58,929 nucleotides of DNA, taken from positions 1 through 58,929 of the IMG/VR virus record IMGVR_UViG_3300020400_000001, one strand, 5' to 3'. Below, one piece after another: positions 31,822 through 57,656 of the stretch. This stretch comes from a virus. Within the stretch, counting starts at the first letter, position 1, and every line of letters begins with the position of its first letter. A program made the translations under genes and the position numbers. The notes beneath the pieces were generated by a model. It was not told the DNA's origin. It searched no databases and was given only the letters and a program-made list of their open reading frames with translations.

Positions 31822-31823
31822 GG

Positions 31824-31840
31824 TGGTTAAATTTTAACCA
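31824..31840. repeat. terS-flanking inverted repeat, copy 4, before the terS start
   Basis: TGGTTAA-ATT-TTAACCA lies 2 bases upstream of the terS ATG, where a ribosome site would be. As DNA it can act as an operator; as RNA it can form a hairpin over the start region. Confidence 0.85.
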
Positions 31841-31846
31841 GTTGGA

Positions 31847-31870
31847 GAAAATATTCCTAGTCAGAGTTCC
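31847..31870. repeat. Dispersed quasi-palindrome, copy 1
   Basis: GAAAATATTCCTAGTCAGAG, a variant of the element. It lies between the divergent late (terS) and early arms. Confidence 0.6.
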
Positions 31871-31903
31871 TCTGAAACTACTATCTTTTTGCTTACTAAA
31901 TGC

Positions 31904-31931
31904 TTGCTTGCACATATGAGAGGTATATAAT
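31904..31931 (+). promoter_or_regulatory. Early rightward promoter
   Basis: TTGCTT at 31904-31909 and TATAAT at 31926-31931 are 16 bases apart, a sigma-70-like pair. Transcription should start near 31938, at or next to the ATG at 31939. It heads the early arm in the divergent region opposite terS. Confidence 0.5.
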
Positions 31932-31938
31932 TAGACAT

Positions 31939-32046
31939 ATGAAGAACAGATTTAAACAGACACGAAACAAGCGACACGATTTGTCGCTCTCTCGTGGACA
32001 AAATATGGAGGGTAGAAACAATAGACCAGTAAAGATTTTTATTTGA
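31939..32046 (+). CDS. Small basic peptide, possibly leaderless (35 aa)
   Basis: A frame from ATG 31939 gives M-K-N-R-F-K-Q-T-R-N-K-R and ends V-K-I-F-I. It has no ribosome-binding site at normal distance, but it begins 8 bases after the -10 box, so a leaderless message is possible. A 6-bp hairpin (GCGACA/TGTCGC) lies within the frame. It could also be part of the structured leader. Confidence 0.42.
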   Translation: MKNRFKQTRNKRHDLSLSRGQNMEGRNNRPVKIFI

Positions 32047-32335
32047 CCGCTTGCGGAAAACACCTAGGGAAGGTGGCAAGCGTGGAGTCAATCCTTGGCT
32101 CTCTAACTCAGGAAGGAAAACTCGCAGACAGGCTGACGAGGCGTGAAAGTAAGGACACCTCTGACCGACAGCGAAACAAGACTATCACTTGTTAGCACGA
32201 AACAAGATGTCGCAAAATGTAAATGATGGTCACTAACGAGTGACGATTGGATAGACATAAAGTGACCTATCCGACTCTGAGATGAGAATAAAAAAACATT
32301 TATGTAAAACAAATTCCTTAAAGAAAATTTTTTGT
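32047..32335 (+). ncRNA. Structured untranslated leader region
   Basis: No open frame is present for about 290 bases. Stable helices are seen: CGCTTGC/GCAAGCG (near 32047-32080) enclosing CACCT/AGGTG; GTCACT-AACG-AGTGAC near 32231; GGATAG/CTATCC near 32249; and CTTGTT/AACAAG near 32190. The string CGAAACAAG recurs. It may be a leader RNA or a separate small RNA; its function is not recognised. Confidence 0.45.
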
Positions 32336-32360
32336 GAGGGATGGCGCTTTGCTATCCCTC
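32336..32360 (+). other. Stable hairpin before ribozyme 1
   Basis: GAGGGATGGC and GCTATCCCTC pair over 10 bp (one G-T), with a 5-base loop. There is no T run, so it is not a standard terminator. It lies 12 bases before the predicted cleavage point of the ribozyme. Confidence 0.75.
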
Positions 32361-32364
32361 GCAA

Positions 32365-32417
32365 TATCTGTCGCAAGGTGTGTGCCTTGCCTGAAGAAGC
32401 GAAAGCAGAAACAGATA
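32365..32417 (+). ncRNA. Hammerhead ribozyme-like RNA 1 (type III layout)
   Basis: Stem III strands are TATCTGT (32365-32371) and ACAGATA (32411-32417). After the GUC triplet (predicted cleavage after C32372) stem I is GCAAGG/CCTTGC with loop TGTGTG. The core CTGAAGA (32391-32397) is followed by a short stem II (GC-GAAA-GC) and GAAA. All hammerhead core bases are present. The 10.1/11.1 pair is A-A, which is not canonical. It sits in the leader of the gene at 32449. Confidence 0.78.
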
Positions 32418-32448
32418 CTTTTAACTTTTAATTTTGCAGAGGTGCATT

Positions 32449-32565
32449 ATGAAAAATTTCTATATCAGAAATATCAAGGTGAACAGAGATAGCAGAAAGC
32501 AATCTGTTCGTAAATTTAAAAACAGTTCTCGATACTGGGAAGCACAATCCAAGGAGGTGGTCTAA
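32449..32565 (+). CDS. Small basic protein (38 aa)
   Basis: A ribosome site (GCAGAGGTGCATT) precedes the ATG at 32449. The product is Lys/Arg/Asn/Ser-rich (I-R-N-I-K-V-N-R-D-S-R-K) and its stop overlaps the next start (TAATG). It is the first gene after hammerhead 1. The leader end TTTTAACTTT...GAGGTGCA is shared with the genes at 33235, 34461 and 37187. Confidence 0.68.
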   Translation: MKNFYIRNIKVNRDSRKQSVRKFKNSSRYWEAQSKEVV

Positions 32566-32843
32566 TGGCGGAACTACAAAAAAACATGCTGACTATAGAG
32601 GAACGAGACGAGTTGCAGAATAAACTCATAAGAGATATTCAGACAATACTCATGCAAGCACATATGCTAGAGAAATGGTCGGAGATACTAAAAAGACTCG
32701 ACACTCTAAGCTACGATGCTGTCTATGATTTGATGGATACTTTTCTAAAAACTTCTCGATACTCTGAGAGCGCTAAGTTAAAGACAGTAGATTTTCTTAC
32801 TGTCCTTGCGGAACGAATGAGTGAAGATGGGAGGTGGTCATAA
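32565..32843 (+). CDS. Early helical protein (92 aa)
   Basis: AAGGAGGTGG gives a very strong start site. The protein is helical (E-E-R-D-E-L-Q-N-K-L-I-R-D-I-Q-T, then W-S-E-I-L-K-R-L-D). The 37366 product has a similar pattern (M-D-E-R-V-A-L-K-N-E-V-S-D-L-L, then I-D-R-L-D-G-I-S), so the two look like distant paralogues. Function unknown. Confidence 0.68.
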   Translation: MAELQKNMLTIEERDELQNKLIRDIQTILMQAHMLEKWSEILKRLDTLSYDAVYDLMDTFLKTSRYSESAKLKTVDFLTVLAERMSEDGRWS

Positions 32844-33100
32844 TGAAAGATTTTTATGTGACTAAAGAGACAGTCGAAGTTCTCGAGTATAGAGGTTTTC
32901 GTATCCGAAAAATAATTACTCGTTCTGAGAAGTTTGGAACAGAAGTTTTTTACCATGCAGAGTATAAGAGGGATAGCGAATGGCATAACGAATATTTGTT
33001 ACCGACTTATTCTTGTGTGCGTGACTGGATTGACGAGCAACACGAAAGCGAGGACTTTCAAGAATGGGAGAAGGAAGTTTGGAATAATCCGAATTTCTAA
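32843..33100 (+). CDS. Early hypothetical protein (85 aa)
   Basis: The start at 32843 (TAATG junction, GGGAGGTGG upstream) is preferred to 32834. The small alpha/beta protein has R-G-F-R-I-R-K-I-I-T-R, W-H-N-E-Y-L-L-P-T-Y and an acidic, Trp-rich C-terminus (F-Q-E-W-E-K-E-V-W). It is the last gene before hammerhead 2. Confidence 0.68.
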   Translation: MKDFYVTKETVEVLEYRGFRIRKIITRSEKFGTEVFYHAEYKRDSEWHNEYLLPTYSCVRDWIDEQHESEDFQEWEKEVWNNPNF

Positions 33101-33110
33101 TCCATTTGAG

Positions 33111-33136
33111 GAGAGGGTTGAGCAATCAATCCTCTC
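33111..33136 (+). other. Stable hairpin before ribozyme 2
   Basis: GAGAGGGTTGA-GCAA-TCAATCCTCTC forms an 11-bp stem with a GNRA loop. It lies 15 bases before the predicted cleavage point, between the 33100 stop and the ribozyme. Confidence 0.85.
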
Positions 33137-33144
33137 TCTCAAAA

Positions 33145-33202
33145 AACTGTCATCGAGGTGTGTGCCTCGGTCTGATGATGGAACAAAAGTTCCGAAACAG
33201 TT
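33145..33202 (+). ncRNA. Hammerhead ribozyme-like RNA 2 (type III layout)
   Basis: AACTGT (33145-33150) pairs with ACAGTT (33197-33202) as stem III. GUC is the triplet, with predicted cleavage after C33151. Stem I is ATCGAGG/CCTCGGT with loop TGTGTG; core CTGATGA is at 33172-33178; stem II is GGAAC-AAAA-GTTCC; then GAAA. A single U between core and stem II is unpaired. It lies in the leader of the MoxR-type gene. Confidence 0.82.
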
Positions 33203-33234
33203 CTTTTAACTTTCACAATTTGCGGAGGTGCAAT

Positions 33235-34311
33235 ATGAGTGAAGAAAATAAAATGATGGAAGCCTCTCCATCTAAAGCTTTGAGGCTATTAAACAATGTC
33301 GTGAGTGCTGGAAAAGTTCCGATGCTCTTAGGCGGTGTTGGTGTTGGTAAATCTGCGATAGTAAATGAGTTCGCTCAGGTGCTAGCTGGAGATAGAAAAA
33401 TCGTTGAGACAATTAGACCTAAGAAAGACGAGTTCGGTTCGCTTGATTTTAGAGCGAGTCTGTATGAGACGATTGAGTTGGGTGGTCTACCTTTCATTGT
33501 AAATGGAGAACAGAAGAGAGCGTTTCTCGGAAATCTTCCAGTCAGTGGAGAGGGTCTACTTTTTATTGACGAGTTCGCTCAAGCGACTGCGGATATGCAG
33601 AAGCTTCTCGGACAGTTGGTTCATGAGAGAAGGCTGGGAGAATATGTCATGCCTGAAGGCTGGCATATTGTCATGGCTGGAAACAGAGCGAGTGATAGGT
33701 CAGGTGCTAACAAGATGCTTGCTCATATGACCAATAGGCTGGCTCTGATTAATTTCAAGCATGATGTTAATGACTGGCTCGTTTGGGGTTCTCAGGCTGG
33801 TGTTCATTCCTCTATCTTAGGGTTCATAAATTTTATGCCTAAGTTGTTATGGAAGTTCGATGCCAAGGATAGTAATCCTCAACCTTCTCCAAGAGCATGG
33901 TCGAGACTGTCTGACATCATGAAGGCAATGCCTGAGAGTGACAAAGACTTGATGCCTTTCCACGCTCAGAGCAATGTCGGTATCGAGGCTGGATTAGAAT
34001 TTATGAATTTCATAAATCTATCTCAGGATATTCCGAACCTTGCAGACATTGTCGATGGCAAGAAGGTCGATGTTCCTGAGACCATGGGTCTGCAATATGC
34101 GACAGCAGTTGCGTTGGTCTCTGCCATCCAAGATGCAGACGAGAAGTTGAAGCCTTCATACTTCGATAACTCTCTGAAATGGATTGATACTTTTCCATCG
34201 AAAGAGTTCGCTGTCTTTTTCATGAGAGCGGTGGTCGGTGTCTGCCCTGAGTTGAAAAACACCAGCACCTATTCAGTTTTCATTTCTGAAAATGACAAGG
34301 TGTTAATCTAA
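33235..34311 (+). CDS. MoxR-type AAA+ ATPase (358 aa)
   Basis: The start at 33235 follows TGCGGAGGTGCAAT; the longer frame from 33106 would run through the ribozyme. Walker A is G-G-V-G-V-G-K-S (residues 33-40) and Walker B is L-L-F-I-D-E-F (108-114), followed by a sensor-like G-N-R-A-S-D-R near 152. MoxR proteins act as chaperone-like ATPases with VWA partners, and such a partner is encoded at 35426. Its target in the host is unknown. Confidence 0.85.
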   Translation: MSEENKMMEASPSKALRLLNNVVSAGKVPMLLGGVGVGKSAIVNEFAQVLAGDRKIVETIRPKKDEFGSLDFRASLYETIELGGLPFIVNGEQKRAFLGNLPVSGEGLLFIDEFAQATADMQKLLGQLVHERRLGEYVMPEGWHIVMAGNRASDRSGANKMLAHMTNRLALINFKHDVNDWLVWGSQAGVHSSILGFINFMPKLLWKFDAKDSNPQPSPRAWSRLSDIMKAMPESDKDLMPFHAQSNVGIEAGLEFMNFINLSQDIPNLADIVDGKKVDVPETMGLQYATAVALVSAIQDADEKLKPSYFDNSLKWIDTFPSKEFAVFFMRAVVGVCPELKNTSTYSVFISENDKVLI

Positions 34312-34323
34312 ATCAGACTGGTG

Positions 34324-34354
34324 GGGGGAAATATTACTAGTCAATATTTCTCCC
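34324..34354 (+). other. Stable hairpin before ribozyme 3, made from the dispersed element
   Basis: GGGGGAAATATT pairs with AATATTTCTCCC over 12 bp (one G-T) with loop ACTAGTC. It is copy 2 of the dispersed quasi-palindrome, here in the hairpin position. The predicted cleavage point lies 21 bases later. Confidence 0.8.
34327..34353. repeat. Dispersed quasi-palindrome, copy 2
   Basis: GAAATATTACTAGTCAATAT with strong dyad symmetry, between the MoxR gene and ribozyme 3. Confidence 0.85.
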
Positions 34355-34367
34355 TACTCAGTTTCAG

Positions 34368-34422
34368 AAACTGTAATCGAGTGGGTACTCGGTCTGATGA
34401 TTGCAAAAGCATGAAACAGTTT
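34368..34422 (+). ncRNA. Hammerhead ribozyme-like RNA 3 (type III layout)
   Basis: AAACTGT (34368-34374) pairs with ACAGTTT (34416-34422). The triplet is GUA, with predicted cleavage after A34375. Stem I is ATCGAGT/ACTCGGT, giving a short GGGT loop (or the 6-base TGGGTA loop if the last pair opens). The core CTGATGA is at 34394-34400; stem II is TGC-AAAA-GCA with a U-U pair at its base; GAAA follows. It lies in the leader of the gene at 34461. Confidence 0.8.
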
Positions 34423-34460
34423 TTTTAACTTTCTTTAAATTAATTTTGCGGAGGTGCAAT

Positions 34461-35426
34461 ATGAAAAAGAAAATCAAAATAGATACTATCTTTCAAGATA
34501 CTTTTACGAAGGTCAGGTTTTATTCGTCTGCCATTAGTGGTATCAAAAAAGATAGCTTTGCGAGTGAGGAGTTAGCCAGCAATAAAAATGCTGTCGCTTC
34601 TCTCGTTGGTGTTAATAAAAAAATCTTCGGTAGAGATATTAATAAAGAGTTCCGAAAAATTCAGAATGAATTTAGAAAGAAGTATCTTTATAAATATACT
34701 CACGCTTGGCAAGATGGCGAGGGCATGGCATCTGAATGGAGGATAGTCTCCAATGAGAAGCTTGATACTTTGCTTAATGGTTACGAAGAGTATGAGGCTA
34801 AGTTCTCAGAGTTGGTCAATGAGATTAAGACTGATTATCTTAGACTCATCCAAGAGGGCATGGCTAAACTTGGTAAGCTTGCGAATGAGCAAGACTACAA
34901 AGAATGGCATCAAATTGAAAAGAAATTTGCTTTCAATATAACGACTGACTTTTTCAGTTCTTATGACACAAGCAATGACGAAAGAATTCATGCGGATGCT
35001 AAGAGGAGAAAAGCGATAGAGAACAATGTCGCTTCTCGTTATGAGTCTAACTTCAAAGTGCTAGCAGAGAAGATGAAAAAGGACTTGGAGGGTTCAATAA
35101 CTAACATCATCAATGCTCTAAAGAAAGATGGCTCAGGTAAATCCTTTTTCAAGGACAGCGTGTTTCAAGGTCTTAAAGACCAAATTGAAACTAACAGAGA
35201 CCTGAATAAAAAACTCTTTCAAAGCGAAGAGATTGACAAGGCTATTCAAGTTTGTGTCGAGTCTCTCGCTTCAGTAAATGACATCGACTCTCTGAGAGAC
35301 AAAGGCGATATTGGAAAAACCAAAAGAGCAAAAGTCACTCAGGACATGGAGAAGGCTAAGTCAATTCTTAATCAGAATACGCTTGGCAAAATCTTTTCAG
35401 GTGCTGGATTAGAGGAGGGCAAGTAA
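34461..35426 (+). CDS. Helical protein between MoxR and VWA genes (321 aa)
   Basis: The start at 34461 follows TGCGGAGGTGCAAT. The protein is mostly long charged helices (E-F-R-K-I-Q-N-E-F-R-K-K-Y, then V-L-A-E-K-M-K-K-D-L-E-G). No enzyme motif is visible. Its stop shares a base with the VWA start, and MoxR lies just upstream, so it is likely the third subunit of this system. I do not recognise the family. Confidence 0.72.
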   Translation: MKKKIKIDTIFQDTFTKVRFYSSAISGIKKDSFASEELASNKNAVASLVGVNKKIFGRDINKEFRKIQNEFRKKYLYKYTHAWQDGEGMASEWRIVSNEKLDTLLNGYEEYEAKFSELVNEIKTDYLRLIQEGMAKLGKLANEQDYKEWHQIEKKFAFNITTDFFSSYDTSNDERIHADAKRRKAIENNVASRYESNFKVLAEKMKKDLEGSITNIINALKKDGSGKSFFKDSVFQGLKDQIETNRDLNKKLFQSEEIDKAIQVCVESLASVNDIDSLRDKGDIGKTKRAKVTQDMEKAKSILNQNTLGKIFSGAGLEEGK

Positions 35427-36973
35427 TGAGTAGCTACGATAAATCTCAGAGGTCTCTTCATGGTGGTCTTTCTGCTAATGAAGTAATGCTCAAGGCGAAA
35501 AACAAATTGATGAATTCTGAGTCAGGTCTTGCATCAATTCTTTTGAGTCTGCCCTTGGAAGAGGATAGTTCTTTTGACACCATGGCAACCAATGGCGAGG
35601 TCATAAAATACAATCCTGATTTTGTCCTCGGTCTACCGATGGAAGAAATCAAAGGTGTCCTCATTCACGAGGCTCTTCATGTTGTATGGGGTCATCATCT
35701 TAGAAGAGGCGATAGGCATCCGAAGCTTTGGAATATTGCTACTGATTATGCAATCAATGGCTATGAAGTTTATAAGCTTGGGAAACAGTTGCCTCAAGGT
35801 GCATTGCTCTCGCATAGATACCTAAACAAAGATGGCTCTATCATGGATGCGGATACCATTCATGACATCTTGTTCGATGACGATGAGGCTCTTCAAGAAG
35901 CTATCGATGATATGCAACAGCAGATGGGCGATGACTCTGACGAGAACGAAAGTCAGGGTCAGGGTCAGGATGACAATCAAGATGAGTCTGAAGAGGATAC
36001 TCAAGGCTCAGGCTCAGGCGATGGCGATGAGGAAACCGATGAGGAAACCGAAGGTCAGGGTTCAGGCGGAAATGCAGATGGAGATGCGGAGACTGGTGAT
36101 GATGAAAATATTACTGGTCAGGGTTTCTCCGATGAGCGTTCTCCTGAGACCAATGAGTCAGGGAAGATTGACTTGAATGATTTGCCTCAGATGGCTGGCG
36201 GTGTCTTTGACATGACTAACGAAGATGGCTCTCAGTTTTCTGAAGATGAGTTGCAAGAGCAGATAACTAAACTTGATGCTCAAGTAATGATGGCAGAGAA
36301 AGTTCAAGGCATGATTAATTCAGGCGAAGGCTCAGGGATTGATTATCTCGGAGGTCGTAAGTCTGAGTTGGTTGAGCAAGTTGTTCCTTGGGAGGATATG
36401 TTTAGAGATATGTTCACTCAGGTTCAATCGAACAATAACACTTGGTCTATGCCTAATCGCAGACACATGGCTCGTGGTATCTATATGCCTAGTAAGGACA
36501 AAGAACCATCAATCAAAAATGTCGTGATGCTGGTTGATGTTTCAGGTTCTACTGAGGGTGATAGAGACTCATTCATTACTGAGGCTCTCGCTATCCTCGA
36601 AGAGTTTCAGGTCAAGAAACTCATGGTCAATAGGTATGCTGGTGTCGCTCTCAGAAATGAGCAAGGCGAATACTTCGATGTCTACGATACTGACCAAGGA
36701 GATGAGATGCCTGATAAAGATGAAATCAATTTTGCTGGGTCAGGGTGGACTAACTTCGATGCGCCATTCAATGCTGTCGAAGAGTTCCTCGACCTTGATG
36801 AGATTGATTTGATTGTTCACTTCTCGGATGGAGAGGGAAGCTTCGAGCAAGAACATGATGCCTTGCTTGATACTCCTATCTGTCATGTCTTTAGCTATGG
36901 TCAGGATGGCAGTAGCTATGGCGGTAATGAGATTGAAGAGTCAGGTTTCGGAGAAGTTATCTACATGAGTTAA
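35426..36973 (+). CDS. Metallopeptidase-like (DUF2201-type) plus VWA domain protein (515 aa)
   Basis: The N-terminal domain has a zinc peptidase-like helix with H81-E-A-L-H85 and a following D-R-H-P-K-L-W-N-I-A-T-D-Y. An acidic Gly/Gln/Asp/Glu linker spans about 160-245. The C-terminal VWA domain has the metal site D371-V-S-G-S375 (V-D-V-S-G-S-T) and later F-S-D-G-E-G. MoxR plus VWA pairs are known in bacteria as ATP-driven chaperone-like or conflict systems. A copy of the dispersed element (36104-36130) is inside the linker. Confidence 0.85.
   Translation: MSSYDKSQRSLHGGLSANEVMLKAKNKLMNSESGLASILLSLPLEEDSSFDTMATNGEVIKYNPDFVLGLPMEEIKGVLIHEALHVVWGHHLRRGDRHPKLWNIATDYAINGYEVYKLGKQLPQGALLSHRYLNKDGSIMDADTIHDILFDDDEALQEAIDDMQQQMGDDSDENESQGQGQDDNQDESEEDTQGSGSGDGDEETDEETEGQGSGGNADGDAETGDDENITGQGFSDERSPETNESGKIDLNDLPQMAGGVFDMTNEDGSQFSEDELQEQITKLDAQVMMAEKVQGMINSGEGSGIDYLGGRKSELVEQVVPWEDMFRDMFTQVQSNNNTWSMPNRRHMARGIYMPSKDKEPSIKNVVMLVDVSGSTEGDRDSFITEALAILEEFQVKKLMVNRYAGVALRNEQGEYFDVYDTDQGDEMPDKDEINFAGSGWTNFDAPFNAVEEFLDLDEIDLIVHFSDGEGSFEQEHDALLDTPICHVFSYGQDGSSYGGNEIEESGFGEVIYMS
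36104..36130. repeat. Dispersed quasi-palindrome, copy 3, inside the VWA gene
   Basis: GAAAATATTACTGGTCAGGG is translated as E-N-I-T-G-Q-G in the low-complexity linker of the VWA protein. Confidence 0.8.
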
Positions 36974-36989
36974 TCTCAATGAGCGTTCT

Positions 36990-37036
36990 GAGAGGAGGTT
37001 TTTAGGGTGGTACTAAACCTTAGCCTCCTCTCTTTT
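36990..37036 (+). terminator. Hairpin with T run before ribozyme 4
   Basis: GAGAGGAGG pairs with CCTCCTCTC, with inner pairing TTTAG/CTAAA, and the stem is followed by TTTT. It fits an intrinsic terminator after the VWA gene and also sits in the hairpin position of the ribozyme leaders, about 46 bases before the predicted cleavage point. Confidence 0.8.
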
Positions 37037-37074
37037 CGCCAGCGAGAGAGCCTCTATGGAGGTCGAATTCAGGA

Positions 37075-37158
37075 AACTGATAGAGAAAATGTGTGTTTTC
37101 TCCTGATGACTCAATATGAGAGCGTGTAAGCGTTGGTTCAAAAGAACCGAAATCAGTT
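37075..37158 (+). ncRNA. Hammerhead ribozyme-like RNA 4, with an insertion
   Basis: AACTGAT (37075-37081) pairs with ATCAGTT (37152-37158). The triplet is AUA, with predicted cleavage after A37082. Stem I is GAGAAAA/TTTTCTC with loop TGTGTG, identical to ribozymes 1 and 2. The core CTGATGA is at 37103-37109, GAAA at 37149-37152. Between core and the stem II hairpin (GGTTC-AAAA-GAACC) lie 25 extra bases, including CTCA-ATA-TGAG. It may be less active or differently folded. Confidence 0.68.
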
Positions 37159-37186: not shown

Positions 37187-37366
37187 ATGAAAAAAATATA
37201 TGAAAAGTTTTTGAGTCTTTTCAAAACTCAAGTGGTGGAAGATAAATCTTATTATCTTTCGTATGAGAATGGTGGTGTTCTTGTTTTGCACAATCCTGTG
37301 GAACAGGGAGGAGAAAATATTACGAGTAATATTTCCTCAAGCGTCACAAAAACTGGAGGTGCGTAA
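37187..37366 (+). CDS. Small early protein (59 aa)
   Basis: The start at 37187 follows TGCGAGGTGCAT. The protein reads M-K-K-I-Y-E-K-F-L-S-L-F, a middle Y-L-S-Y-E-N-G-G-V-L-V-L-H and a tail E-N-I-T-S-N-I-S-S. That tail is encoded by copy 4 of the dispersed element. The gene ends on the next start (TAATG). Confidence 0.65.
   Translation: MKKIYEKFLSLFKTQVVEDKSYYLSYENGGVLVLHNPVEQGGENITSNISSSVTKTGGA
37313..37338. repeat. Dispersed quasi-palindrome, copy 4, inside a coding region
   Basis: GAAAATATTACGAGTAATAT, with almost perfect dyad symmetry, translated as E-N-I-T-S-N-I-S. Confidence 0.85.
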
Positions 37367-39022: not shown

Positions 39023-39050
39023 GAAAACTATTACTGGTAAATATTTTTTC
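39023..39050. repeat. Dispersed quasi-palindrome, copy 5
   Basis: CTATTACTGGTAAATATTTT, reversed with respect to copies 1-4. It lies 46 bases before the DnaA-like boxes. Confidence 0.85.
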
Positions 39051-40084: not shown

Positions 40085-40550
40085 GATACCAAAAGTTTAG
40101 CATTGCATCTGAGCAATCAATCACACTATCAAGTTGCGACTGAGTAATCCTATCAGGGTTCTCAGTCATGACTTTCCAAAACTCTTTCTCCTTCTTACTT
40201 CCACAATCCTCAACCAATCTGTTTTGAACTTGGCTTAGTACAAGTGGTTTTGTATTGACGCTGGGAGAACTATTACTGGTAAATATTTTGTCAAGGTCGC
40301 CAGCCGAACTCTGTGGAAAAACTCCTGACCTAGAAATCAAACCTAAATATTTATCACAAACATTGTGTTGTTTCTCGTTGATTAGTTGTTCGGTATAAAG
40401 CTTGTCGATAATATGCTGGTCAAAGACTATGGCTCTACCAACCTTGGTATTGTCAATGCTTCTAACTTCTACCTTGTGTCTCAGATGTAGATAGGAATTT
40501 CCTACATCATTTACGATTAGAACTTCCTCAGAAATCCCAGTCGAAGTCAT
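40026..40550 (-). CDS. Hypothetical protein of the inverted replication island (174 aa)
   Basis: I choose the start at 40550 (M-T-S-T-G-I-S-E-E), which overlaps the primase-helicase by 23 bases; a longer frame would overlap by 56. It reads A-I-V-F-D-Q-H-I-I-D-K-L and W-K-V-M-T-E-N-P-D-R-I-T. No domain recognised. Copy 6 of the dispersed element is inside it. It converges on the RHH gene (59-base tail overlap). Confidence 0.6.
   Translation of the reverse strand: MTSTGISEEVLIVNDVGNSYLHLRHKVEVRSIDNTKVGRAIVFDQHIIDKLYTEQLINEKQHNVCDKYLGLISRSGVFPQSSAGDLDKIFTSNSSPSVNTKPLVLSQVQNRLVEDCGSKKEKEFWKVMTENPDRITQSQLDSVIDCSDAMLNFWYLSQTSPISLFQKAFLNLTE
40265..40292. repeat. Dispersed quasi-palindrome, copy 6, inside a coding region
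   Basis: CTATTACTGGTAAATATTTT, same orientation as copy 5; read on the minus strand as K-I-F-T-S-N-S-S. Confidence 0.85.
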
Positions 40551-44155: not shown

Positions 44156-45045
44156 TGAAGTACACTAATAAGAATAACTTGCCTGAAGAGATTGTTCGTG
44201 CTGTCCAGCAAGATACATACTCTAAGGGCAAAGCTTCTATTAGTGTGACTGGATTACTCTCTGCACCTCGACCTAATATCTTGGCGAGAGAACATCACAG
44301 CGAATTAGTTGTTGATGTATCAGACGAGATATGGAAGATATTAGGAACAGCTTCGCACTACATAATGGAACAAGCAAACATCGGTCACGAAGGAACGATA
44401 ACCGAAGAGCGTTTGTACTGGAATGTGCGAGGCTGGACTATCTCAGGACAGTTTGACTCGATGTCATTGAAAGACTCTACTCTTAGAGATTTGAAGGTCA
44501 CTTCCTCATGGACTGTGATGCACGCTCTGAAGGAAGGGAAGATTGAATGGGAACAACAGTTGAATTGTTATGCTTGGTTGTACAAGAAAAATCACAACAA
44601 GGATGTTGAGAAGTTGGAGATTATAACTATCAATAGAGATTGGTCTGAAAGACAGAAGCAGAGAAGCGGTGGGGATTATCCTGATGCTCAGGTATCAGTA
44701 ATACCTATCAAGCTTTGGACTGAAGAAGAGCAAGAAGAATTCATTGTGTCTAGAGTCAAGGCACATCAAGAGGCAGATGCTGACTATCTTATTAGTAAGG
44801 AGTTGCCCTTGTGTACTGACGAGGAACGATGGAAACAAGCTGACTCTTACAGAGTATTAAAGAAAAACAGAGTACGAGCAATTCGTATTCTGAATACCGA
44901 GGAGGAAGTGAACGATTTTATTAACGAACAAAACGATAAAGATTTGTATGTGGACTTTGTCAAAGGCGAGAGTCGTAAGTGTAAAGACTACTGCAATGTC
45001 TCACAGTTTTGTAATCAATACGCTATGGAGGTAGCCGATGGATGA
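44155..45045 (+). CDS. PD-(D/E)XK exonuclease, RecB/Cas4-like (296 aa)
   Basis: Catalytic layout: H68 (T-A-S-H-Y-I), D101 (S-G-Q-F-D-S), D112-L-K114 (R-D-L-K-V-T-S) and Q135-x3-Y139 (Q-L-N-C-Y). Cysteines in P-L-C-T-D-E-E and the C-terminal C-K-D-Y-C-x5-C could hold a 4Fe-4S cluster, as in Cas4 or AddB. With the DUF1071-like annealing protein at 45417 it forms an exonuclease/annealing pair for recombination. Confidence 0.85.
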   Translation: MKYTNKNNLPEEIVRAVQQDTYSKGKASISVTGLLSAPRPNILAREHHSELVVDVSDEIWKILGTASHYIMEQANIGHEGTITEERLYWNVRGWTISGQFDSMSLKDSTLRDLKVTSSWTVMHALKEGKIEWEQQLNCYAWLYKKNHNKDVEKLEIITINRDWSERQKQRSGGDYPDAQVSVIPIKLWTEEEQEEFIVSRVKAHQEADADYLISKELPLCTDEERWKQADSYRVLKKNRVRAIRILNTEEEVNDFINEQNDKDLYVDFVKGESRKCKDYCNVSQFCNQYAMEVADG

Positions 45046-47032: not shown

Positions 47033-47297
47033 AGGACTTTACACATTTGAGCAATCTATCAATAGGATTGAAGAGATAACAGTTGAAGCTGAAAGTCTTG
47101 AAGATGCTAGAAGGCAAGTAGACCTAGCTGATGATGAACAATGGGAAGTTGTCTATAGCGAAGGAGTTGATTTGGTTTGTGTCTGTACACCAGCCATGAG
47201 AGACGAGATAGAAGATGCAGAAATTGTCGAAGAGAACGCTGACAAATATCAAGCTATCAAATCTGACAACGCAGATTTTTTCACGCAGAAACTTTGA
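47025..47297 (+). CDS. Small acidic early protein (90 aa)
   Basis: GGAGGTAGGGA gives the start. I-T-V-E-A-E-S-L-E-D-A-R-R-Q-V-D fits the strand-helix pattern of the 46892 and 48927 products. The stop lies inside copy 9 of the dispersed element. Unknown function; strong negative charge. Confidence 0.65.
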   Translation: MSKGLYTFEQSINRIEEITVEAESLEDARRQVDLADDEQWEVVYSEGVDLVCVCTPAMRDEIEDAEIVEENADKYQAIKSDNADFFTQKL

Positions 47298-47310
47298 CCA
47301 GTAATATTTT
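47288..47310. repeat. Dispersed quasi-palindrome, copy 9 (inverted)
   Basis: Minus-strand AAAATATTACTGGTCAAAGT. It spans the end of one gene and the spacer before the next ribosome site. Confidence 0.8.
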
Positions 47311-49541: not shown

Positions 49542-49685
49542 CACCTGCGACCCAGATTTTTTAGCTCCGAAGAAAATATTACCAGTTATAGTTTGTGCTT
49601 TAAGGCTTTCAGTTCTGCTGATTTCTGGCTGTCACCTGCAACCCAGATTTTTCGAGCTTTGAGAAAATATTACTGGTCAATGTTT
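49542..49685. repeat. 53-bp direct repeat pair in the convergence region
   Basis: Two copies of about 53 bases at 49542-49594 and 49633-49685, about 80 percent identical by eye, both starting CACCTGC and containing ACCCAGATTTTT and then the dispersed element. Spacing is 91 bases. No gene lies in 49472-49709. Confidence 0.85.
49572..49594. repeat. Dispersed quasi-palindrome, copy 11
   Basis: GAAAATATTACCAGTTATAG, inside the first 53-bp repeat copy. Confidence 0.8.
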
Positions 49686-49709: not shown

Positions 49710-52700
49710 TTATTGATTTATGAAAGTTTCTATTTTGGTACGAAGATAAGGTACTTTGGATAGTCTTGCATTTCTAGCAAGGTCAAGTTGCATAAGCAAT
49801 TCTTTTTTTACTTCGTCTGAGATAGTCTCGTCTCTTTTGATTGCATCTCTTCTATCTCTGTATCTTTTCATATACCTATCGATACGCAACACTTGAGGTC
49901 TGGTTTCTATCAAGCCTTCATTGTTGGCTCGAAATGTTTGGACTTCTTTAAACATACCTCTTTCTTTCAGTTCATTGATAGTTGCAATGGCTCTATTGCT
50001 TTCCTCTCTTAGTTCATAGAATTGTTGCTGAACACCAGCACCTACTTCAGAGGCAAATATACGCTTCAGGAGAGGCAATCTATCTATAGTAGGGGTCACT
50101 ATGTCTTTACCAGTCACGCCTCTTGTGACCGCATCTATGAGGCTCAGAATGTAAGTACCTATAGTTCCGCCATATCCACTCAAAGCATATTCAAGTTTCA
50201 TAGGAGAAATGTTCAAGCCTTGTCCTATTAATCTAATGAATTCGTTTGTTTGAGGTGTGGCTTGTAGCCTAGGTTCTAAGCTTCTTTCTATATAATCAGG
50301 TACAACACGATTACCAGTAAAGCCACTTCTATTATTTATGTATGCTTCATAGAAAGGTTTGATAGCTTGGAAACCAAAGATGTCTACCATAAATGTTTGA
50401 GTCAATGCCCTTGAAGATGTTCTGCTTAAATCTTCTAAGCTTGATTGACCCATTAGAACATCTGCTATTCTCTCAGGTAAAGTCTTGAACAAAACTCCTA
50501 CTTCAAAAGGTACTGGTATTTTTAAAGGTGGGAGTCCTTCAGATGAAAAGATAAACCAGTTGTCATCTCTTTCTTCTCTTCTTCTTGCTCTGTACTCATC
50601 CTTGTCACTAACCATTGCATAATAAAGTAGTGTAGCCATTGCAAGCAATCCACCTCTTAATGCAAATCCTTTGATAATATTATTACGAATTTGGTTATCT
50701 GAGGTGACAGCAGCTCCCGGGCTGCCTGCAGAATATTTACCAGTCATACTTCTGTACAGTACATCTAGTCCTTGTATTCTTGCATTTAAGAATGGAATAG
50801 CTGTTGTAATAATAGACATAATTGGATGCCCACCTCTTCTTGAGAAGTTAATTATTTCTGATGCTTGGAAAGCCGCTTCGGTGTGACTGCCAGTAGCTTC
50901 TAAAACTTTTTTATAAACACCTAATCTTGTTGCACCATCTGACTCATAAGTTTTTCTGCCTAAATAATCCCATACTTTTATCATGGCATCTTTAGGATTA
51001 AGACTACCATTCTCTCCAAAGCCAGCCTCTTTTACTTTCTTGTCAAAAAATCTAACTGCATCTACAGAGTCTGCTGAATAATCGTATCCTCCAAGGACAC
51101 CAAATCTTTCTAGCTCTCTTAAATCCGTAGCACCAAATAGTTGAAAATTTCTAAAGGTATCTATGACAGGTGTTATGCGAGAACCACTTGTTACAGAAGC
51201 TGACATTGTATCTCTCAACATATTAATAAGTATAAATCCGGGGTCTCTTGTGACTGTTTCTCTAAGTAGAGTTGCAGGCATACCTAGGAAAGTAGATATA
51301 ACTCCCAAGTCATCTTGTATGCCGAGTGTTCTTAAGCCTTCAAAGTAATATGGGTCAGCTACTTGAAAGAATTTTTTTCTACCATCTACAAATACTGGAA
51401 TAATATCTATGCCTTGTGCTTTATCAGATGGCACTTCTCTTGCGCCTAATTCTAAATCTCCATCAGCATTATCTACTCTTGATAGGAGATGGTTTCTCAT
51501 AAGCTTTTGTGCAGCATCGTTTCTCATTCCAGCAGTAAGAATTGCTAGTTGATTTCTTAGAATAGCTTCAATAGGTCTGACATTAACAGCTTCTTGCTTA
51601 CCTCTCATGGGTATGGCTAGAGGATTACCACCAAGTATTCCGCCACCTATATTAGGTGCATTAACTTTGCTTTCAGCTTCATTAACCATGGCTCTATAAA
51701 AAGGATAGTAAGAAGCATCATCCTTCCATATCTGTGCAGTAGACCTAGTCTCAATAATATTTTCAGGTTGTAGTCCTTTAACACTATTAAACTGTTCAGC
51801 AAGTAATAATAACTTAGCATCCGAAGCATCTTTTGCTGACTCAATACCATTGTCTAATAAAGCTTTTCTTATTTCAGGTATTGGTGCTAAGTCAGAAATC
51901 ATTCCAGTATCTATACCAAACTGTATAGTCTTTGCATTTATCTCTGTAAAAATATCCCAAGCTTCTTTAACTTCTTTGTATTCATTTCCTATAGCTAGAG
52001 CTTGTTCAATCTTAGCTACAGTTGCATCTAAGTCTATCTCTCCATCTTCTTTATTAACTTGTAAAGGTATTGGTTGTCCTTTAACTAACTTGCCATTTTC
52101 ATCATACTGATTTTTATCTAAGATAGTTTTACTTCTAATACCTACTCCATAAGTACCAAAAAGTTTTTCAGCATCTATGCTTTCTTTCTGTGCTAAGTCA
52201 TATAATCTTCCAAAAGCATTTATAAAATTTAATCTTCCATCTATTTCAACAGAAGCTAATCCATTCTTCATGGTCATAAAACCATCTTTAATTACAGATG
52301 CAAAAATACCTTTAGCTTTATCTGTCCACAACATAGCTTGGTATGCACCAGTCTCTGCAAATCTTTCTATGTTTTCTAAATCTGGATTAGCTGCAACATT
52401 CTTTTTAATACCTTGTAGTTCTTTGTTGTACTTATCAATGATTGCTGCTCTCAAAGATGTAAGCCATCTACTTGGATTTCCAAAAACAGTTCCTTCTGAT
52501 ACTCTTTCCCAAAAAGATAAAGGTGCATCTTCTATTTGTCCTAAAGCATCATCAACTATTTTTTCATGTTCTTTAGGTACAGGTTGTTTATCTATTCTAA
52601 AAGTAGGTAAGTCTTTATAGCTTTCATCATTTTCTTGTTCTATTTCATATGCAACTTTTTGCGCTAAGTCACTTGCCTTATTATTAAATCTAGGCACAGC

Positions 52701-55700
52701 TTCTGAATAAGTCTGTTCATTTTCTTTTTCTATAAAATCTTTAGCTTCTTTTATTTTTGCTTGCTCTTGTGCCAATGTTTCTTCTTTGGCTGAGTCTAAC
52801 TCTGCAGTTGGTTTGGAATAAACAACATCTGAAAAACCTAATCTACCGCTAGTAAGTTCTATATCTCCATATTTATCTGCAATAAAACCAGTTCCTAAGT
52901 TTTGCCAAAAGTCTAATGCAGAAGGTGTTATGTTTATTATGTTAAGTTTTTCTTTGCCATCTACTATATTAGGATTAGTAGACATAATAGTTTCAAGAAT
53001 AGCTTTAGCTATCCCATTGCCTTGTTGATTTTGGTCTATAAAAATATTTTCTAAATGAGTAATGTTTCCATCTTCATCTCTACCTATTGAAACTCCACCA
53101 ACTAAATCTGCTGGTGGTGAAGGTCTAAGATAAGCAGGGTCATCAGGAGATATATTGAGAGAGTCGTTTATTTCTTTAGCTACTAATACTAATGGAGTGT
53201 TGTAATTAAATGTAAGTTTTTCTCCTAGCTTTTCATTAAAGAAACCAAATTGTTTAAAACCAAGTAGTGCGTTATGCACAGGATTAGAAAAAAGAATATC
53301 TCTTATTTCATTACTAGGTTTGGCATAAACTTCATATAGTTCATATGTTCTATCAAAGATAAGGTCTGCTGCAAAAGAAGGATTAGTTTCAGTTGATTGA
53401 CCAGTCTTACTTAAAACAATATCTGTACTAACTCCATTTAAATCAACAGTAGCTTCTATCTTTTCATTGAGTCCACCTTTATCTTTAAAGTCTACAGATT
53501 TTTGTGGACTAATTTTTCTATTAAATGTCGGAAGGTCTACTATTTTTTCAGGGAAAAATCCCCATCTACCCCAGCCTCCATTACCATCCCAACGAAGTTC
53601 TCTTGCTCTTATAGTATATTCATGAAGTTTTGATGGAGTCTTGCTAGACATTATTATGCCCATTAAGTCTCTATCAATAAATTCATCTGCTTGGTTTCTA
53701 AGTCTTTCAGCAGTTAAATCAATAGCACCTGTTCTTTCAATATCTTGTTGTCTTAATCTTTCTCTTTCTGCTTCTCTAATTTGCTGTCGTGTTATTTGTG
53801 AATCTTTTACAAGTTGTACAGCTTCTGTTCTAAGAGGAGTTACTAAGTCTCCTTCTCGCAAATCTCTTTGTGGTGCAGCTTGATACACAGTTATACGAGC
53901 ATTAGGATTACCTTGTGCCTCTTGCAATGCTTGAAAAAATTGTTGCTCTTCTGCTAAAAGTTGTAAGCTATCTTTAATATATATAGCTTCATCAGTCTGT
54001 GGGTTTACCAAAGACTCCATTCCATTTTCTTCTACATATTTATTTATTTGACCAAATCTATTTCTATAAACAGAATAAATTTGAAACTCATTTGGGTCAT
54101 AAAGATTTCCGCTTACACCAAATGTTCCATACTGACCAAGTAATCCTTTGTAAAATTCTTTATCAGAAGTATTTTCATTTAAATTATCTGCAGGCGGACC
54201 ATACTGTGGAGGAACTAAATCAGCTACATGACCTGTAGAATTATCTCTATCTAATTTGAAAGCTTTAGGTTCATCAATAACATCTTTCAATGCTACTTTA
54301 ATAGGTTGTTCTCTTTCACCATCAGTATCTCCAGTAGCTTGAGGAGTATTCAAACTAGCACCAGCACCTACCAGTTGGTTAATCAGTATCATAGAGTCAT
54401 TAGCTGACCTAATTTTGTTTCTATCTCTTCTACCTATAACACCAGCTTCTATATCTTCTAGAATTTTATAAGGATTTCTAAAGTCAGAAATATAAATGCC
54501 ATTGAACATCTCTCTTATAAAATCAAAAAATCTTTGTACTCTAGTTCTTTGTGTACGATTTAAACTGCTTGGGTCTTTTGTATAAACTCTAAAAAACTCT
54601 GCAACAAATTCTTCATCAACCGCATAAGGTGGTAGCTTAAGTTCATCAACATAGTTTTTCTTTATTTTCTTTTGAACATCTTGAGGCAAAGCTGCTTTGG
54701 CTTCTTTAACTAATTGTTGATACTCTCCTTCTGTAAATAAACCTAAATTCCTCATAGCATGAATGACTTCATGGTTTAAATCTTGTACCATCTTTTCTTC
54801 TAAAGCAGGCATTCCACCAAAAGGCATCCCACCGGGATTAATACTAGCCATGTAAAAGAGCATTGTCTTATGTGCTTTATTGTATTCAGCATCTGGTTTT
54901 TCAGTACCTTCTTTAAAACCAATAACATTACCATTATCATCTCTAACAGCATTTTGCATACCCTTGTAATAATCGGTAATCTTTATCCTGACATCTTTAC
55001 TTAGACCTAGCTTCCTTAATCTTCGGTCTAAAGCTTTTGCTAAAGTATCATAGCTTTCTAAAGTAATTGGTGGTGGTAAAGTTAATACAGGTTTTGGTGG
55101 ACCAAATACTAACTTATCAACTTCTTCAGGAGTAAGTTGTGTTTGCTCTAATCTTTCTATGTATTCACCTTGAGTTTCATTATCAGGCGTAGCATTTTTA
55201 GATTGCTCTAGTTTATAGTTTGGATTGCCAAGAACTCGATTGCCTTTTTTTATAGCACGCTTACTAAATAATAAATCTTTTTTAAACTTATCTCTTTGTG
55301 TTTTAGTATTAACTAAATTTTGAGAATCAAAGTAAGTCTGTATTTCTCTATCAGTAATAGCACTATTTTGATATTGATTAGCAAAAGCATTTAATTGTTG
55401 CTCTGTATATTGTCGAGGCATTAAATCAGGTATAGAAGTTGGAGAGTCAAACCTAGGCAAAGCACCTAGTCTAGTCATCAACATTTCTTTTTGACCTAAG
55501 TTCATCTTAGAAAACTTAGCTTCGCCTGTAATAGTTTTTCTAATAAACTCAAACTCTGGACCAGTAATATTTCCTTTAATATTCTTAGCAGCTAATATTT
55601 GTTTGAACGCTGCTGGCGATACATCAATAGTATTATCTTCTCTTCTGCCTACTTCATTCAACAAACCATACTGTGCATCTAATTCAAAAAGAATATTTGC

Positions 55701-57656
55701 TCTATCTCTCATTAATTGATTAAAGTCAGCAGGTTTTAAAATTCTTTTTACTTCGTCTATTGTGTAATAACTTTTCTTACCAAAACCTTTTTTATCTGCT
55801 CTATTTTGGAAATCATTTAACAAACTAGAATTTTCTTCAGACAATAATGCTTCTTGCAAAGGAGATACTATCTCTCCATTTTCATATCTTTTTATGAGTT
55901 CATTTGCTTTTTCTGCACCAAACTCTCTTGTAAGTTCTTTCTTAAGTTGTGTTTTAGATTTCTTTTTATCTTGATATTCTGCAGGTATCTCATCTAATTT
56001 ATAAACAGGTTTTAATAAATTAATTTCTGATTCTAATCTTTCCCTAGCTTCTAAGTTTCCATCGCCTCTAGTCAAAGCATCTATTAACTCTAAAGTATTA
56101 ACAGATTTTTCTAACTCTTGTATTCTTTCAAAATCTTTTATCTGCCTTCTTCTTTCACCACTTACTACAGAATCAAGAAGCGCAACTCTCCTTGCATCTA
56201 ATATATTTCTTTTAGGGTCATATAAAATTTGTAGCAATCTTTTCATACTGCCACTTTCTGAAAATCCATTTATGCCAGCTATTTGAACTGCAATATTATT
56301 TATGTAATTAGTTCTTAAAGTTTCCTGTACTTCTAAAGCTTTATTAGAAGCTTCTTCTAAAGAACCAAGCACATCAACTTCTTCAGGTGGTGGTGGTCTA
56401 TTTTCTATCTGCACCTTTGGTATTAAAACTCTTGAAGTTTCATAAACAATTCCACTATCAACACCTACAACTGAAGAAGAACCATCCTCATTTTGTACAA
56501 CTTGTACTTCTTCTAATACAGGTAGTTCTTGTTTAGGCTCTGGAGTTGTATCATCTAATACTTCTTCGGCAACAGGTGGTTTATCTTGTACTATAGGTGT
56601 AGCTTCAAAATTAATATCTTTTGCTTGTTGTCTTTCTTGTTCTCTAGCATCACCCATTATTTTTCTAGAGTCTAATTCTTGTTCAACATCTATAGACTGA
56701 CCTATTTTATTTTTACCCATAAAACCACGAAGAACTAAATCAGCAGTAGCACCTACAGCACCACCAGTCATTGCACTATCTAAAAATGACTCTCCTATTT
56801 TTAAATTTTCGTTGTACATATTTGCAGCTATTGCATCTTGCATAATTTCAGCTACACCTTCTTGCAATCCTTCTACTCCACCAGTTGCAGCAGCAGACTT
56901 TAATCTATCAATGACATTTAATTTTTGTCCATCAGATTTAGTTAAGCTTTTTAATAATCTAGTAGGTGCAAATATTTCAGTAGCACCTACTGCACCACCA
57001 AATATTTCTGAAAATATTTCTTGTGTTGGATTTACACTTTCACCTTCTAGTTCTGCTCTTTCAATTCTACTGCCTTGCTCAGATATACCAGTTGGTACTG
57101 CAAATCCTAATGTTGCATTTCTTCTTGCTCTATTTAATCTAGTAGAAACTTCTTCTAATTCTTTAAGAGTTTTTGTTAGCTGTGTACCACCTTGAGTTTT
57201 TGCAAGCCTTTGTAATTGTGAAGCTTTGCCTGCAAGACCTGTAAGTTTTCCAACAGCAGTACCCGGAATCAAAAAAGAACCAAAAGAACCTAAACCTTGT
57301 CCAAACTGTGTACTAAACTTATCTTCATATCCTTTTGCTGGTTTTAATAATTCTAGTTCTCCAATAAAGTCTTGAGCATTTCTTAACGAATCTCCTATTG
57401 CAGAGTCATTGCCAATATCAAATATATTTACTACACCCTCAAGACCTGATAAAAGACCTTGTCCTAATCCTCTAGGTATACCTTTAGCTACCTCTAAGAC
57501 ATTTCCGCCTAGAGTAGTTTCGGTAGGTTCTTGGTATTGGGTAAAGTTATCGGGGTACTCTTGAGCAAGAGTATTTTGAAGCCTTATATAATAATCTCTA
57601 TCTGCATCTGCTGGAACATCTACATATCTTCCATCAGGTAAATTATATCTTGGCAT
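49710..57656 (-). CDS. Giant polyvalent internal-virion-type protein (2648 aa)
   Basis: It opens M-P-R-Y-N-L-P-D-G-R-Y-V-D, the usual start of large phage proteins injected with DNA. Visible parts: a hydrophobic Gly-rich region (about 65-160); a metallopeptidase helix with H962-E-V-I-H966; an ART-like strand near 1255 (I-T-V-Y-Q-A-A-P, then E-G-D-L-V-T-P); an acetyltransferase-like region near 1515-1590 with Q-Q-G-N-G-I-A-K-A; and a C-terminal part from about 2140 (D-P-G-F-I-L-I-N-M-L-R-D) like the LPD38 domain of polyvalent proteins. It would protect or aid the injected genome. Domain limits are by eye. Confidence 0.85.
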   Translation of the reverse strand: MPRYNLPDGRYVDVPADADRDYYIRLQNTLAQEYPDNFTQYQEPTETTLGGNVLEVAKGIPRGLGQGLLSGLEGVVNIFDIGNDSAIGDSLRNAQDFIGELELLKPAKGYEDKFSTQFGQGLGSFGSFLIPGTAVGKLTGLAGKASQLQRLAKTQGGTQLTKTLKELEEVSTRLNRARRNATLGFAVPTGISEQGSRIERAELEGESVNPTQEIFSEIFGGAVGATEIFAPTRLLKSLTKSDGQKLNVIDRLKSAAATGGVEGLQEGVAEIMQDAIAANMYNENLKIGESFLDSAMTGGAVGATADLVLRGFMGKNKIGQSIDVEQELDSRKIMGDAREQERQQAKDINFEATPIVQDKPPVAEEVLDDTTPEPKQELPVLEEVQVVQNEDGSSSVVGVDSGIVYETSRVLIPKVQIENRPPPPEEVDVLGSLEEASNKALEVQETLRTNYINNIAVQIAGINGFSESGSMKRLLQILYDPKRNILDARRVALLDSVVSGERRRQIKDFERIQELEKSVNTLELIDALTRGDGNLEARERLESEINLLKPVYKLDEIPAEYQDKKKSKTQLKKELTREFGAEKANELIKRYENGEIVSPLQEALLSEENSSLLNDFQNRADKKGFGKKSYYTIDEVKRILKPADFNQLMRDRANILFELDAQYGLLNEVGRREDNTIDVSPAAFKQILAAKNIKGNITGPEFEFIRKTITGEAKFSKMNLGQKEMLMTRLGALPRFDSPTSIPDLMPRQYTEQQLNAFANQYQNSAITDREIQTYFDSQNLVNTKTQRDKFKKDLLFSKRAIKKGNRVLGNPNYKLEQSKNATPDNETQGEYIERLEQTQLTPEEVDKLVFGPPKPVLTLPPPITLESYDTLAKALDRRLRKLGLSKDVRIKITDYYKGMQNAVRDDNGNVIGFKEGTEKPDAEYNKAHKTMLFYMASINPGGMPFGGMPALEEKMVQDLNHEVIHAMRNLGLFTEGEYQQLVKEAKAALPQDVQKKIKKNYVDELKLPPYAVDEEFVAEFFRVYTKDPSSLNRTQRTRVQRFFDFIREMFNGIYISDFRNPYKILEDIEAGVIGRRDRNKIRSANDSMILINQLVGAGASLNTPQATGDTDGEREQPIKVALKDVIDEPKAFKLDRDNSTGHVADLVPPQYGPPADNLNENTSDKEFYKGLLGQYGTFGVSGNLYDPNEFQIYSVYRNRFGQINKYVEENGMESLVNPQTDEAIYIKDSLQLLAEEQQFFQALQEAQGNPNARITVYQAAPQRDLREGDLVTPLRTEAVQLVKDSQITRQQIREAERERLRQQDIERTGAIDLTAERLRNQADEFIDRDLMGIIMSSKTPSKLHEYTIRARELRWDGNGGWGRWGFFPEKIVDLPTFNRKISPQKSVDFKDKGGLNEKIEATVDLNGVSTDIVLSKTGQSTETNPSFAADLIFDRTYELYEVYAKPSNEIRDILFSNPVHNALLGFKQFGFFNEKLGEKLTFNYNTPLVLVAKEINDSLNISPDDPAYLRPSPPADLVGGVSIGRDEDGNITHLENIFIDQNQQGNGIAKAILETIMSTNPNIVDGKEKLNIINITPSALDFWQNLGTGFIADKYGDIELTSGRLGFSDVVYSKPTAELDSAKEETLAQEQAKIKEAKDFIEKENEQTYSEAVPRFNNKASDLAQKVAYEIEQENDESYKDLPTFRIDKQPVPKEHEKIVDDALGQIEDAPLSFWERVSEGTVFGNPSRWLTSLRAAIIDKYNKELQGIKKNVAANPDLENIERFAETGAYQAMLWTDKAKGIFASVIKDGFMTMKNGLASVEIDGRLNFINAFGRLYDLAQKESIDAEKLFGTYGVGIRSKTILDKNQYDENGKLVKGQPIPLQVNKEDGEIDLDATVAKIEQALAIGNEYKEVKEAWDIFTEINAKTIQFGIDTGMISDLAPIPEIRKALLDNGIESAKDASDAKLLLLAEQFNSVKGLQPENIIETRSTAQIWKDDASYYPFYRAMVNEAESKVNAPNIGGGILGGNPLAIPMRGKQEAVNVRPIEAILRNQLAILTAGMRNDAAQKLMRNHLLSRVDNADGDLELGAREVPSDKAQGIDIIPVFVDGRKKFFQVADPYYFEGLRTLGIQDDLGVISTFLGMPATLLRETVTRDPGFILINMLRDTMSASVTSGSRITPVIDTFRNFQLFGATDLRELERFGVLGGYDYSADSVDAVRFFDKKVKEAGFGENGSLNPKDAMIKVWDYLGRKTYESDGATRLGVYKKVLEATGSHTEAAFQASEIINFSRRGGHPIMSIITTAIPFLNARIQGLDVLYRSMTGKYSAGSPGAAVTSDNQIRNNIIKGFALRGGLLAMATLLYYAMVSDKDEYRARRREERDDNWFIFSSEGLPPLKIPVPFEVGVLFKTLPERIADVLMGQSSLEDLSRTSSRALTQTFMVDIFGFQAIKPFYEAYINNRSGFTGNRVVPDYIERSLEPRLQATPQTNEFIRLIGQGLNISPMKLEYALSGYGGTIGTYILSLIDAVTRGVTGKDIVTPTIDRLPLLKRIFASEVGAGVQQQFYELREESNRAIATINELKERGMFKEVQTFRANNEGLIETRPQVLRIDRYMKRYRDRRDAIKRDETISDEVKKELLMQLDLARNARLSKVPYLRTKIETFINQ

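Follow-up and report, generated by a model that had tools for sequence, protein, structure and literature searches.

Hammerhead ribozymes occur in clusters that flank genes in phages and prophages, where they are active both in vitro and in E. coli and where the processing of polycistronic RNA has been suggested as their likely role (Perreault et al. 2011, PMC3088659). In that report, HHphage lies 13 nt ahead of an early gene of a halovirus, and a 5' end has been mapped close to its cleavage site; a U10.1-U11.1 mismatch at the base of stem II is given as a natural active variant, and matches mispaired at 10.1-11.1 were dropped from the final alignments unless their activity had been measured. 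Here we describe four variants of the type III hammerhead in gene leaders of the virus record IMGVR_UViG_3300020400_000001, whose 58,929 nucleotides (positions 1 to 58,929) are called the window below. The window belongs to a tailed phage, with terminase, portal and capsid genes on the minus strand, and the hammerhead region had no match among GenBank phages by blastn. As in the clusters of 2011, several copies flank genes in one genome, here four copies on the coding strand; in contrast, neither a hairpin set flush against the ribozyme nor a pattern at residue 17 is described in the part of PMC3088659 available to us. The filter on 10.1-11.1 would therefore have largely dropped the U.U and A.A classes, which make up 156 of the 344 distinct copies that we collected from viral and bacterial contigs. 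An original prediction, made from the sequence of the window alone, had taken serial copies in leaders to be unusual; the serial copies are there, but clusters flanking phage genes had, by the same report, already been published.

All four elements were found on the plus strand where they had been predicted, each ahead of a plus-strand gene: copy 1 at 32365..32417 (class A.A / C17, predicted cleavage 32372^32373), copy 2 at 33145..33202 (U-bulge + G-C / C17, 33151^33152), copy 3 at 34366..34424 (U.U / A17, 34375^34376) and copy 4 at 37075..37158 (insert class, A17, 37082^37083, of doubtful activity). The cleavage sites agree with the RNA 5' ends that had been forecast at 32373, 33152, 34376 and 37083, and the triplets (GUC, GUC, GUA and AUA), the stems and the TGTGTG loop in three copies (1, 2 and 4) are as described, with stem I of copy 2 being longer than claimed (ATCGAGG/CCTCGGT). 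Each copy runs from a stem III strand through U16.1, a residue 17 other than G, a closed stem I, CUGANGA, stem II and GAA to the second stem III strand, so that the core C3 U4 G5 A6 N7 G8 A9 and G12 A13 A14, said to be complete, is indeed present in all four, as is the A15.1-U16.1 pair. The Watson-Crick pair 10.1-11.1 is absent from the window copies, and the base of stem II is non-canonical in every one of them, as had been noticed, with A.A in copy 1, an extra U before G-C in copy 2, U.U in copy 3 and a 25-nt insert in copy 4; in L018-L020 the site of copy 3 has G-C. This pair is part of the usual consensus and a curation filter, and we did not treat it as strictly defining, active natural exceptions with U.U having been published. 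At the sequence level, loop I (UGUGUG/UGUGUA) is strongly recurrent and loop II is purine-rich across copies, which bears on a possible tertiary contact between the two loops.

The claim that chance is a very unlikely source of these elements holds. A descriptor built of pairing in stems I and III, CUGANGA and GAAA, with no demand on stem II pairing, matched four times in the window and once in 60 shuffled windows, and gave 2 matches in 1.43 Mb of shuffled loci. Unconstrained RNAfold returned the hammerhead junction as the minimum free energy (MFE) structure of copies 1, 3 and 4 and as the centroid of copy 2, with fold z-scores of -5.6 to -5.8 for copies 1-3 together with their upstream hairpins and -4.2 for copy 4.

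Relatives were gathered by searches with the ATPase and VWA/DUF2201 proteins encoded nearby, which fetched loci without any RNA pattern, and further ones came from scanning viral contigs and genomes with patterns. The covariation that had been read from the window helices is borne out across these relatives: in 33 non-window copies and 15 pairs, 97.6% of the cells are paired, and double changes number 164 against 45.7 after shuffling. Stems I and III had been preselected for pairing by the descriptor, and the clean evidence therefore comes from stem II and from orthologous sites. Stem II is paired in 90.9% of cells in the same copies, with both sides changed in three of its four pairs, and at orthologous sites stem I of copy 4 is A-U in the window and G-C in relatives, while stem I of copy 2 reads ATCGAGG/CCTCGGT, ACGAGG/CCTCGT or AGCAAG/CTTGCT. 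The stem I loop UGUGUR is common across the set, and the same stem I hairpin was shared by 1 of 236 copy pairs within loci. An independent test pattern fixed only CTGTC..GTGTG..CTGATGA; GAAACAG came next at 48 of the 54 sites with a paired stem I (at least 5 bp) and at 2 of the 53 sites without, one of the latter being a real copy that had been misparsed. When the core letters were left free, all 10 unique sites in the protein-fetched loci had CUGANGA or CUGAAUGA, each with GAA, and over all loci U16.1 was constant and G17 was seen at 1 of 165 sites. Avoidance of G at this position is a demand of catalysis, not of structure alone.

A covariance model built from the relatives scored copy 1 at 55.5 bits (E = 2e-14), copy 2 at 42.7 bits (E = 1.7e-10) and copy 3 at 65.7 bits (E = 1.4e-17), the last being partly circular as one ortholog of copy 3 was included; copy 4 was found just in part, owing to its insert (16.5 bits, E = 0.022). 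The model gave no further good copy in the window, the next match (E = 0.64 at 44808) having no closed stem I. A search with Rfam hammerhead models, proposed as a check, had a divided outcome: nothing in the window reached the gathering cut-off and no hammerhead appeared at E<=10 over 5.6 kb, whereas copy 3, on a 91-base stretch, gave 16.6 bits to RF00008. Nine relative loci searched at gathering likewise yielded no hammerhead. The window copies share with RF00008 (clan CL00010) the core, three helices, an open stem III, an NUH cleavage site and a short paired stem II, but differ in the A.A, U bulge, U.U or insert at the stem II base and lie far under the cut-off of 48.5 bits. The silence of Rfam at gathering arises because this cut-off is too high for such copies: L030, a relative whose core and stem II are both fully canonical, reached 45.4 bits (E 1.9e-9) on Hammerhead_3 (RF00008) and thus also fell below it, which makes the gathering score a poor test here and its silence in the window no counter-evidence. 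Given the helix covariation, the invariant core and the avoidance of G17 in searches that imposed neither, and the score of L030 on RF00008, the four elements are almost certainly real type III hammerhead variants, and from their sequences copies 1-3 are very probably catalytically active.

Their position is that of leader elements. An open reading frame (ORF) started at most 60 nt from the ribozyme end in 89 of 108 clusters (control 34%), the ribozyme lay within an ORF of at least 60 aa in 11 of 108 (control 54%), and the median distance from ribozyme end to ORF start was 26 nt, with 1-5 copies per tested record. The place ahead of the MoxR ATPase, g34461 and VWA genes is kept across phages down to 26-30% protein identity. 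In the window, the start codons (ATG at 32449, 33235, 34461 and 37187) lie about 30-36 nt 3' of copies 1-4, and the ribosome-binding sites fall outside the ribozymes. Copy 1 is followed by a ribosome-binding site and a small ORF (32438..32563, 38 aa), copy 2 by the gene of a MoxR-like AAA ATPase (33235..34311, PHROG 1297, E 1.4e-70), copy 3 by g34461 (34461..35426, 321 aa), which lacks a match in Pfam or PHROG and has homologs at identities as low as about 27% that also carry a leader hammerhead, and copy 4 by a small ORF of 59 aa (37187..37366), all on the plus strand. In the same segment as g34461 lies a DUF2201 / VWA-type metallopeptidase-like gene (35426..36973, +; PF13203, E 6.8e-40; PHROG 1314). 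The label of PHROG 1314 is HNH endonuclease, while the Pfam match is to the DUF2201 metallopeptidase-like domain, and the HNH label carried into phage records for genes of this type is probably wrong.

A second recurrent feature stands directly upstream. A flush hairpin, defined as at least 6 contiguous bp ending at most 6 nt from the minimal stem III, occurred in 109 of 213 clusters, where shuffling gave 6.6, and 69 of them had it at exactly 0 nt. With random places in the same contigs for comparison, the figures were 69 of 125 against 5.8; this region was untouched by any search pattern. Copies 1-3 of the window have such a hairpin 1-2 nt from stem III, stable in the MFE fold and on the plus strand: 32333..32363, ending 1 nt 5' of copy 1 (a 15-bp hairpin within 2 nt), 33105..33143, ending 1 nt 5' of copy 2 behind an ORF that ends at 33100, and 34316..34363, ending 2 nt 5' of copy 3 behind the ATPase stop at 34311. 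Open-licence papers searched with coarse terms included none on phage leader hammerheads with a flush hairpin, and as far as this limited search shows, the arrangement appears to be previously undescribed.

The base of stem II is linked with residue 17. Before targeted scans, C17 occurred in 0 of 32 U.U clusters and in 42 of 51 G-C clusters, and since the search pattern had favoured C17, the early lack of C17 with U.U is not a matter of ascertainment. Four scans of the whole collection found C17 with U.U in 7 contigs, A17 with U.U in at least 119, A17 with G-C in 48 and C17 with G-C in at least 120, and the later counts are shaped by the scans with at least 119 and at least 120 contigs. Among distinct cores, residue 17 was C in 4, A in 126 and U in 9 of the 139 with U.U, and C in 119, A in 37 and U in 3 of the 159 with G-C (Fisher 4e-42 for distinct cores and 5.6e-25 for clusters, p-values that ignore descent). 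The association is real, and its cause is where explanations compete. The mismatches are mostly limited to U.U, A.A and U/A bulges. The non-canonical base of stem II is not a mark of decay, since U.U, A.A and the U bulge each turn up in many lineages and follow a pattern with residue 17. We found no paper on covariation of 10.1-11.1 with residue 17 among open-licence papers searched with coarse terms, and within that limited search the pattern appears new. The 10.1-11.1 pair sits directly beneath the A9-G12 pair, whose G12 has been proposed as the general base for the 2'-OH of residue 17; a direct structural cause is therefore conceivable.

The pattern could instead reflect descent, with one old lineage having carried U.U together with A17 or U17 and having been spread by recombination, an account that concerns the pattern alone, is weighed apart from the explanations of function below, and to which we give a substantial minority share of belief. 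On trees of three downstream genes, the stem II base has only about 8 supported independent switches; residue 17 changes along with it in about 4-5 of these, roughly half, and is otherwise unchanged, so that the contrasts agree in direction with the association but are too few to be significant; on these trees the account by a single lineage is neither excluded nor favoured. Against it, residue 17 never moved in the opposite direction, and in two pairs (L179/L208 and L242/L244) all three bases switched together with no other difference at the compared positions. Further points against it are that within the clade of the window the copy 3 site comes as U.U/A, bulge/A and bulge/C, and that exceptions with U.U/C17 exist (L311, L312).

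With the anatomy, covariation, core, placement, hairpins and residue 17 pattern as observed, we infer catalysis, the ends that it forms and an effect on mRNA stability. The probable role of the elements, in our judgement, is that of self-processing intergenic or leader elements of the early-region transcript that leave protected ends, which extends the idea of polycistronic processing put forward in PMC3088659. The order in copies 1-3 is the stop of the previous gene, if any, a hairpin, a stem III strand, the cleavage site, the stem I hairpin, the core, a ribosome-binding site and ATG. A cut after residue 17 would leave an upstream mRNA that ends in a hairpin, about 5-10 nt and a 2',3'-cyclic phosphate, and a downstream mRNA with a 5'-OH and the stem I hairpin shortly 5' of the start codon. 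Neither new end would then be open to exonucleases or to decay that depends on a 5'-triphosphate or monophosphate, and hence one long transcript could become separately stable segments, namely the ORFs at 32449-33100, the ATPase at 33235-34311, the genes at 34461-36973 and the genes from 37187 on. By stacking on the short stem III, the flush hairpin may in addition aid folding.

Several points weigh against this role. By the criterion used, a flush hairpin is missing from about half of the clusters and therefore cannot be required; copy 1 has no upstream gene and could only trim a leader; copy 4 carries the 25-nt insert and has no flush hairpin, its counterpart in a distant clade carrying CUGAAUGA; and for this phage the role builds on cleavage and RNA ends that are predicted. 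One competing explanation is control of translation, in which the uncleaved ribozyme would restrain initiation and cleavage would release it, differences in rate between copies timing or dosing expression. The short distance to the ORF start, with its median of 26 nt, would suit it, as would the annotated ATG within the 3' strand of stem III in Bruynoghevirus and the alternation along operons of classes with different expected rates. In the window, though, the ribosome-binding sites are outside the ribozyme, so that both states look accessible, and the flush upstream hairpin would be left unexplained; we regard translation control as unlikely. Still less probable, in our view, is that these are decayed or purely structural former ribozymes kept as folds that stabilise mRNA while cleaving little or not at all. 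Such decay would fit the stem II base, which is non-canonical in every window copy, the interrupted copy 4 and the lack of an Rfam call in the window, but the core bases and the avoidance of G17 are kept also where the search did not impose them, the stem II mismatches are mostly U.U, A.A and U/A bulges instead of random changes, and PaP3, from the group with a U.U/A17 copy, is among the active variants listed in PMC3088659. The self-processing role thus remains the one that we prefer; the locus may hold three credible ribozymes and a copy 4 that is attenuated or dead.

Copy 4 deserves separate mention. Its stem II segment (39 nt) folds as three adjacent hairpins, the last of them the usual stem with an AAAA loop, and is nearly invariant in the window and 8 relatives. 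In the distant clade the corresponding site has an extra core A, CUGAAUGA (L020 3960-4020 and L021 9613-9670), and an insertion after A6 is reported to be of low activity (PMC3088659). As read from sequence, the site may bear a different weakening lesion in each of two clades, being either slow by selection or decayed, and activity of copy 4 at a useful rate is rather doubtful, though far from implausible.

Hammerheads of a similar kind occur in known phages. In Bruynoghevirus (the PaP3/LUZ24 group of P. aeruginosa phages) a U.U / A17 copy with the loop UGUGUG also stands in a phage gene leader, but its stem III has about 4 bp and holds the annotated start codon, and it was found at a single place per record; it was seen in about 70 phage records (e.g. 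L512 1102-1155 and L514 1498-1552). The Schitoviridae (N4-like phages) share the homologous MoxR ATPase and DUF2201-type genes and were considered, with CRP-7, as sources of orthologous hammerheads. This was rejected, as the model had no match within about 8 kb of the matched gene in Ebordelon, pVa5, Pollock and Presley, nor near the matched gene in CRP-7 or phage G. A cultured member of the Schitoviridae, Xanthomonas phage RiverRider (MG983743, near 17.8 kb; L305 about 7995-8050), has an unannotated type I hammerhead-like element (GCCAAT / CTGATGA / GTCC-GTTA-GGAC / GAA / ACACAC-TCT-GTGTGT / A / ATTGGC) between an ORF and a tRNA cluster, with a strong hairpin ahead of it. The theta ribozymes of gut phages, which resemble the hepatitis delta virus (HDV) ribozyme, are likewise self-cleaving RNAs in phage genomes but have another fold and, by the title of their report (PMC10879173), concern tRNA-based recoding, while tRNA prediction found none in the window. 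On the bacterial side, contigs of metagenome-assembled genomes (MAGs; L222/L292 and L248/L296) carry 9 and 13 copies per single MAG, several on one contig and often with a conserved sequence like AAAGATCTTTGA or AGTTCTTT behind them; these contigs are probably phages of uncultured bacteria.

Other features of the window were also recorded. A noncoding stretch of about 500 bases with repeats of CACGAAACAAG lies 5' of copy 1 between divergent operons (31822-32330) and may serve as a promoter region or form a structured RNA. An imperfect palindrome like AATATTACTGGTAAATATT occurs at 34330-34348, 39027-39045, 40269-40287, 47290-47308(-), 49666-49684 and 50732-50750(-), that is, 6 window matches against 0.22 expected, lying in intergenic hairpins (including one 5' of copy 3) and within genes. 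A related motif has 226 occurrences in all loci, where about 2 would be expected. On the minus strand, the 2648-aa ORF at 49710-57656 has an LPD38 domain at its C terminus and, internally, a weak match to a GNAT acetyltransferase.

More generally, and only as a tentative proposal, the flush hairpin, type III hammerhead and ribosome-binding site may form a widespread composite that phages use as a substitute for terminator plus promoter. The composite would come in two or more catalytic grades, each requiring a match between the stem II base (G-C or U.U) and residue 17 (C, or A/U), so that cleavage rates would be gene-specific. If this is true, one catalytic cut would produce two ends, a 3' end and a 5'-OH end, each protected by a hairpin. 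For the best-studied small ribozyme, the pattern of stem II and residue 17 amounts to a natural experiment, and curation filters together with Rfam cut-offs keep a large class of phage ribozymes out of sight. The function of phage hammerheads has stayed unsettled since they became known in 2011, and the flush hairpin offers a concrete and testable one, the paired formation of ends on both mRNAs.

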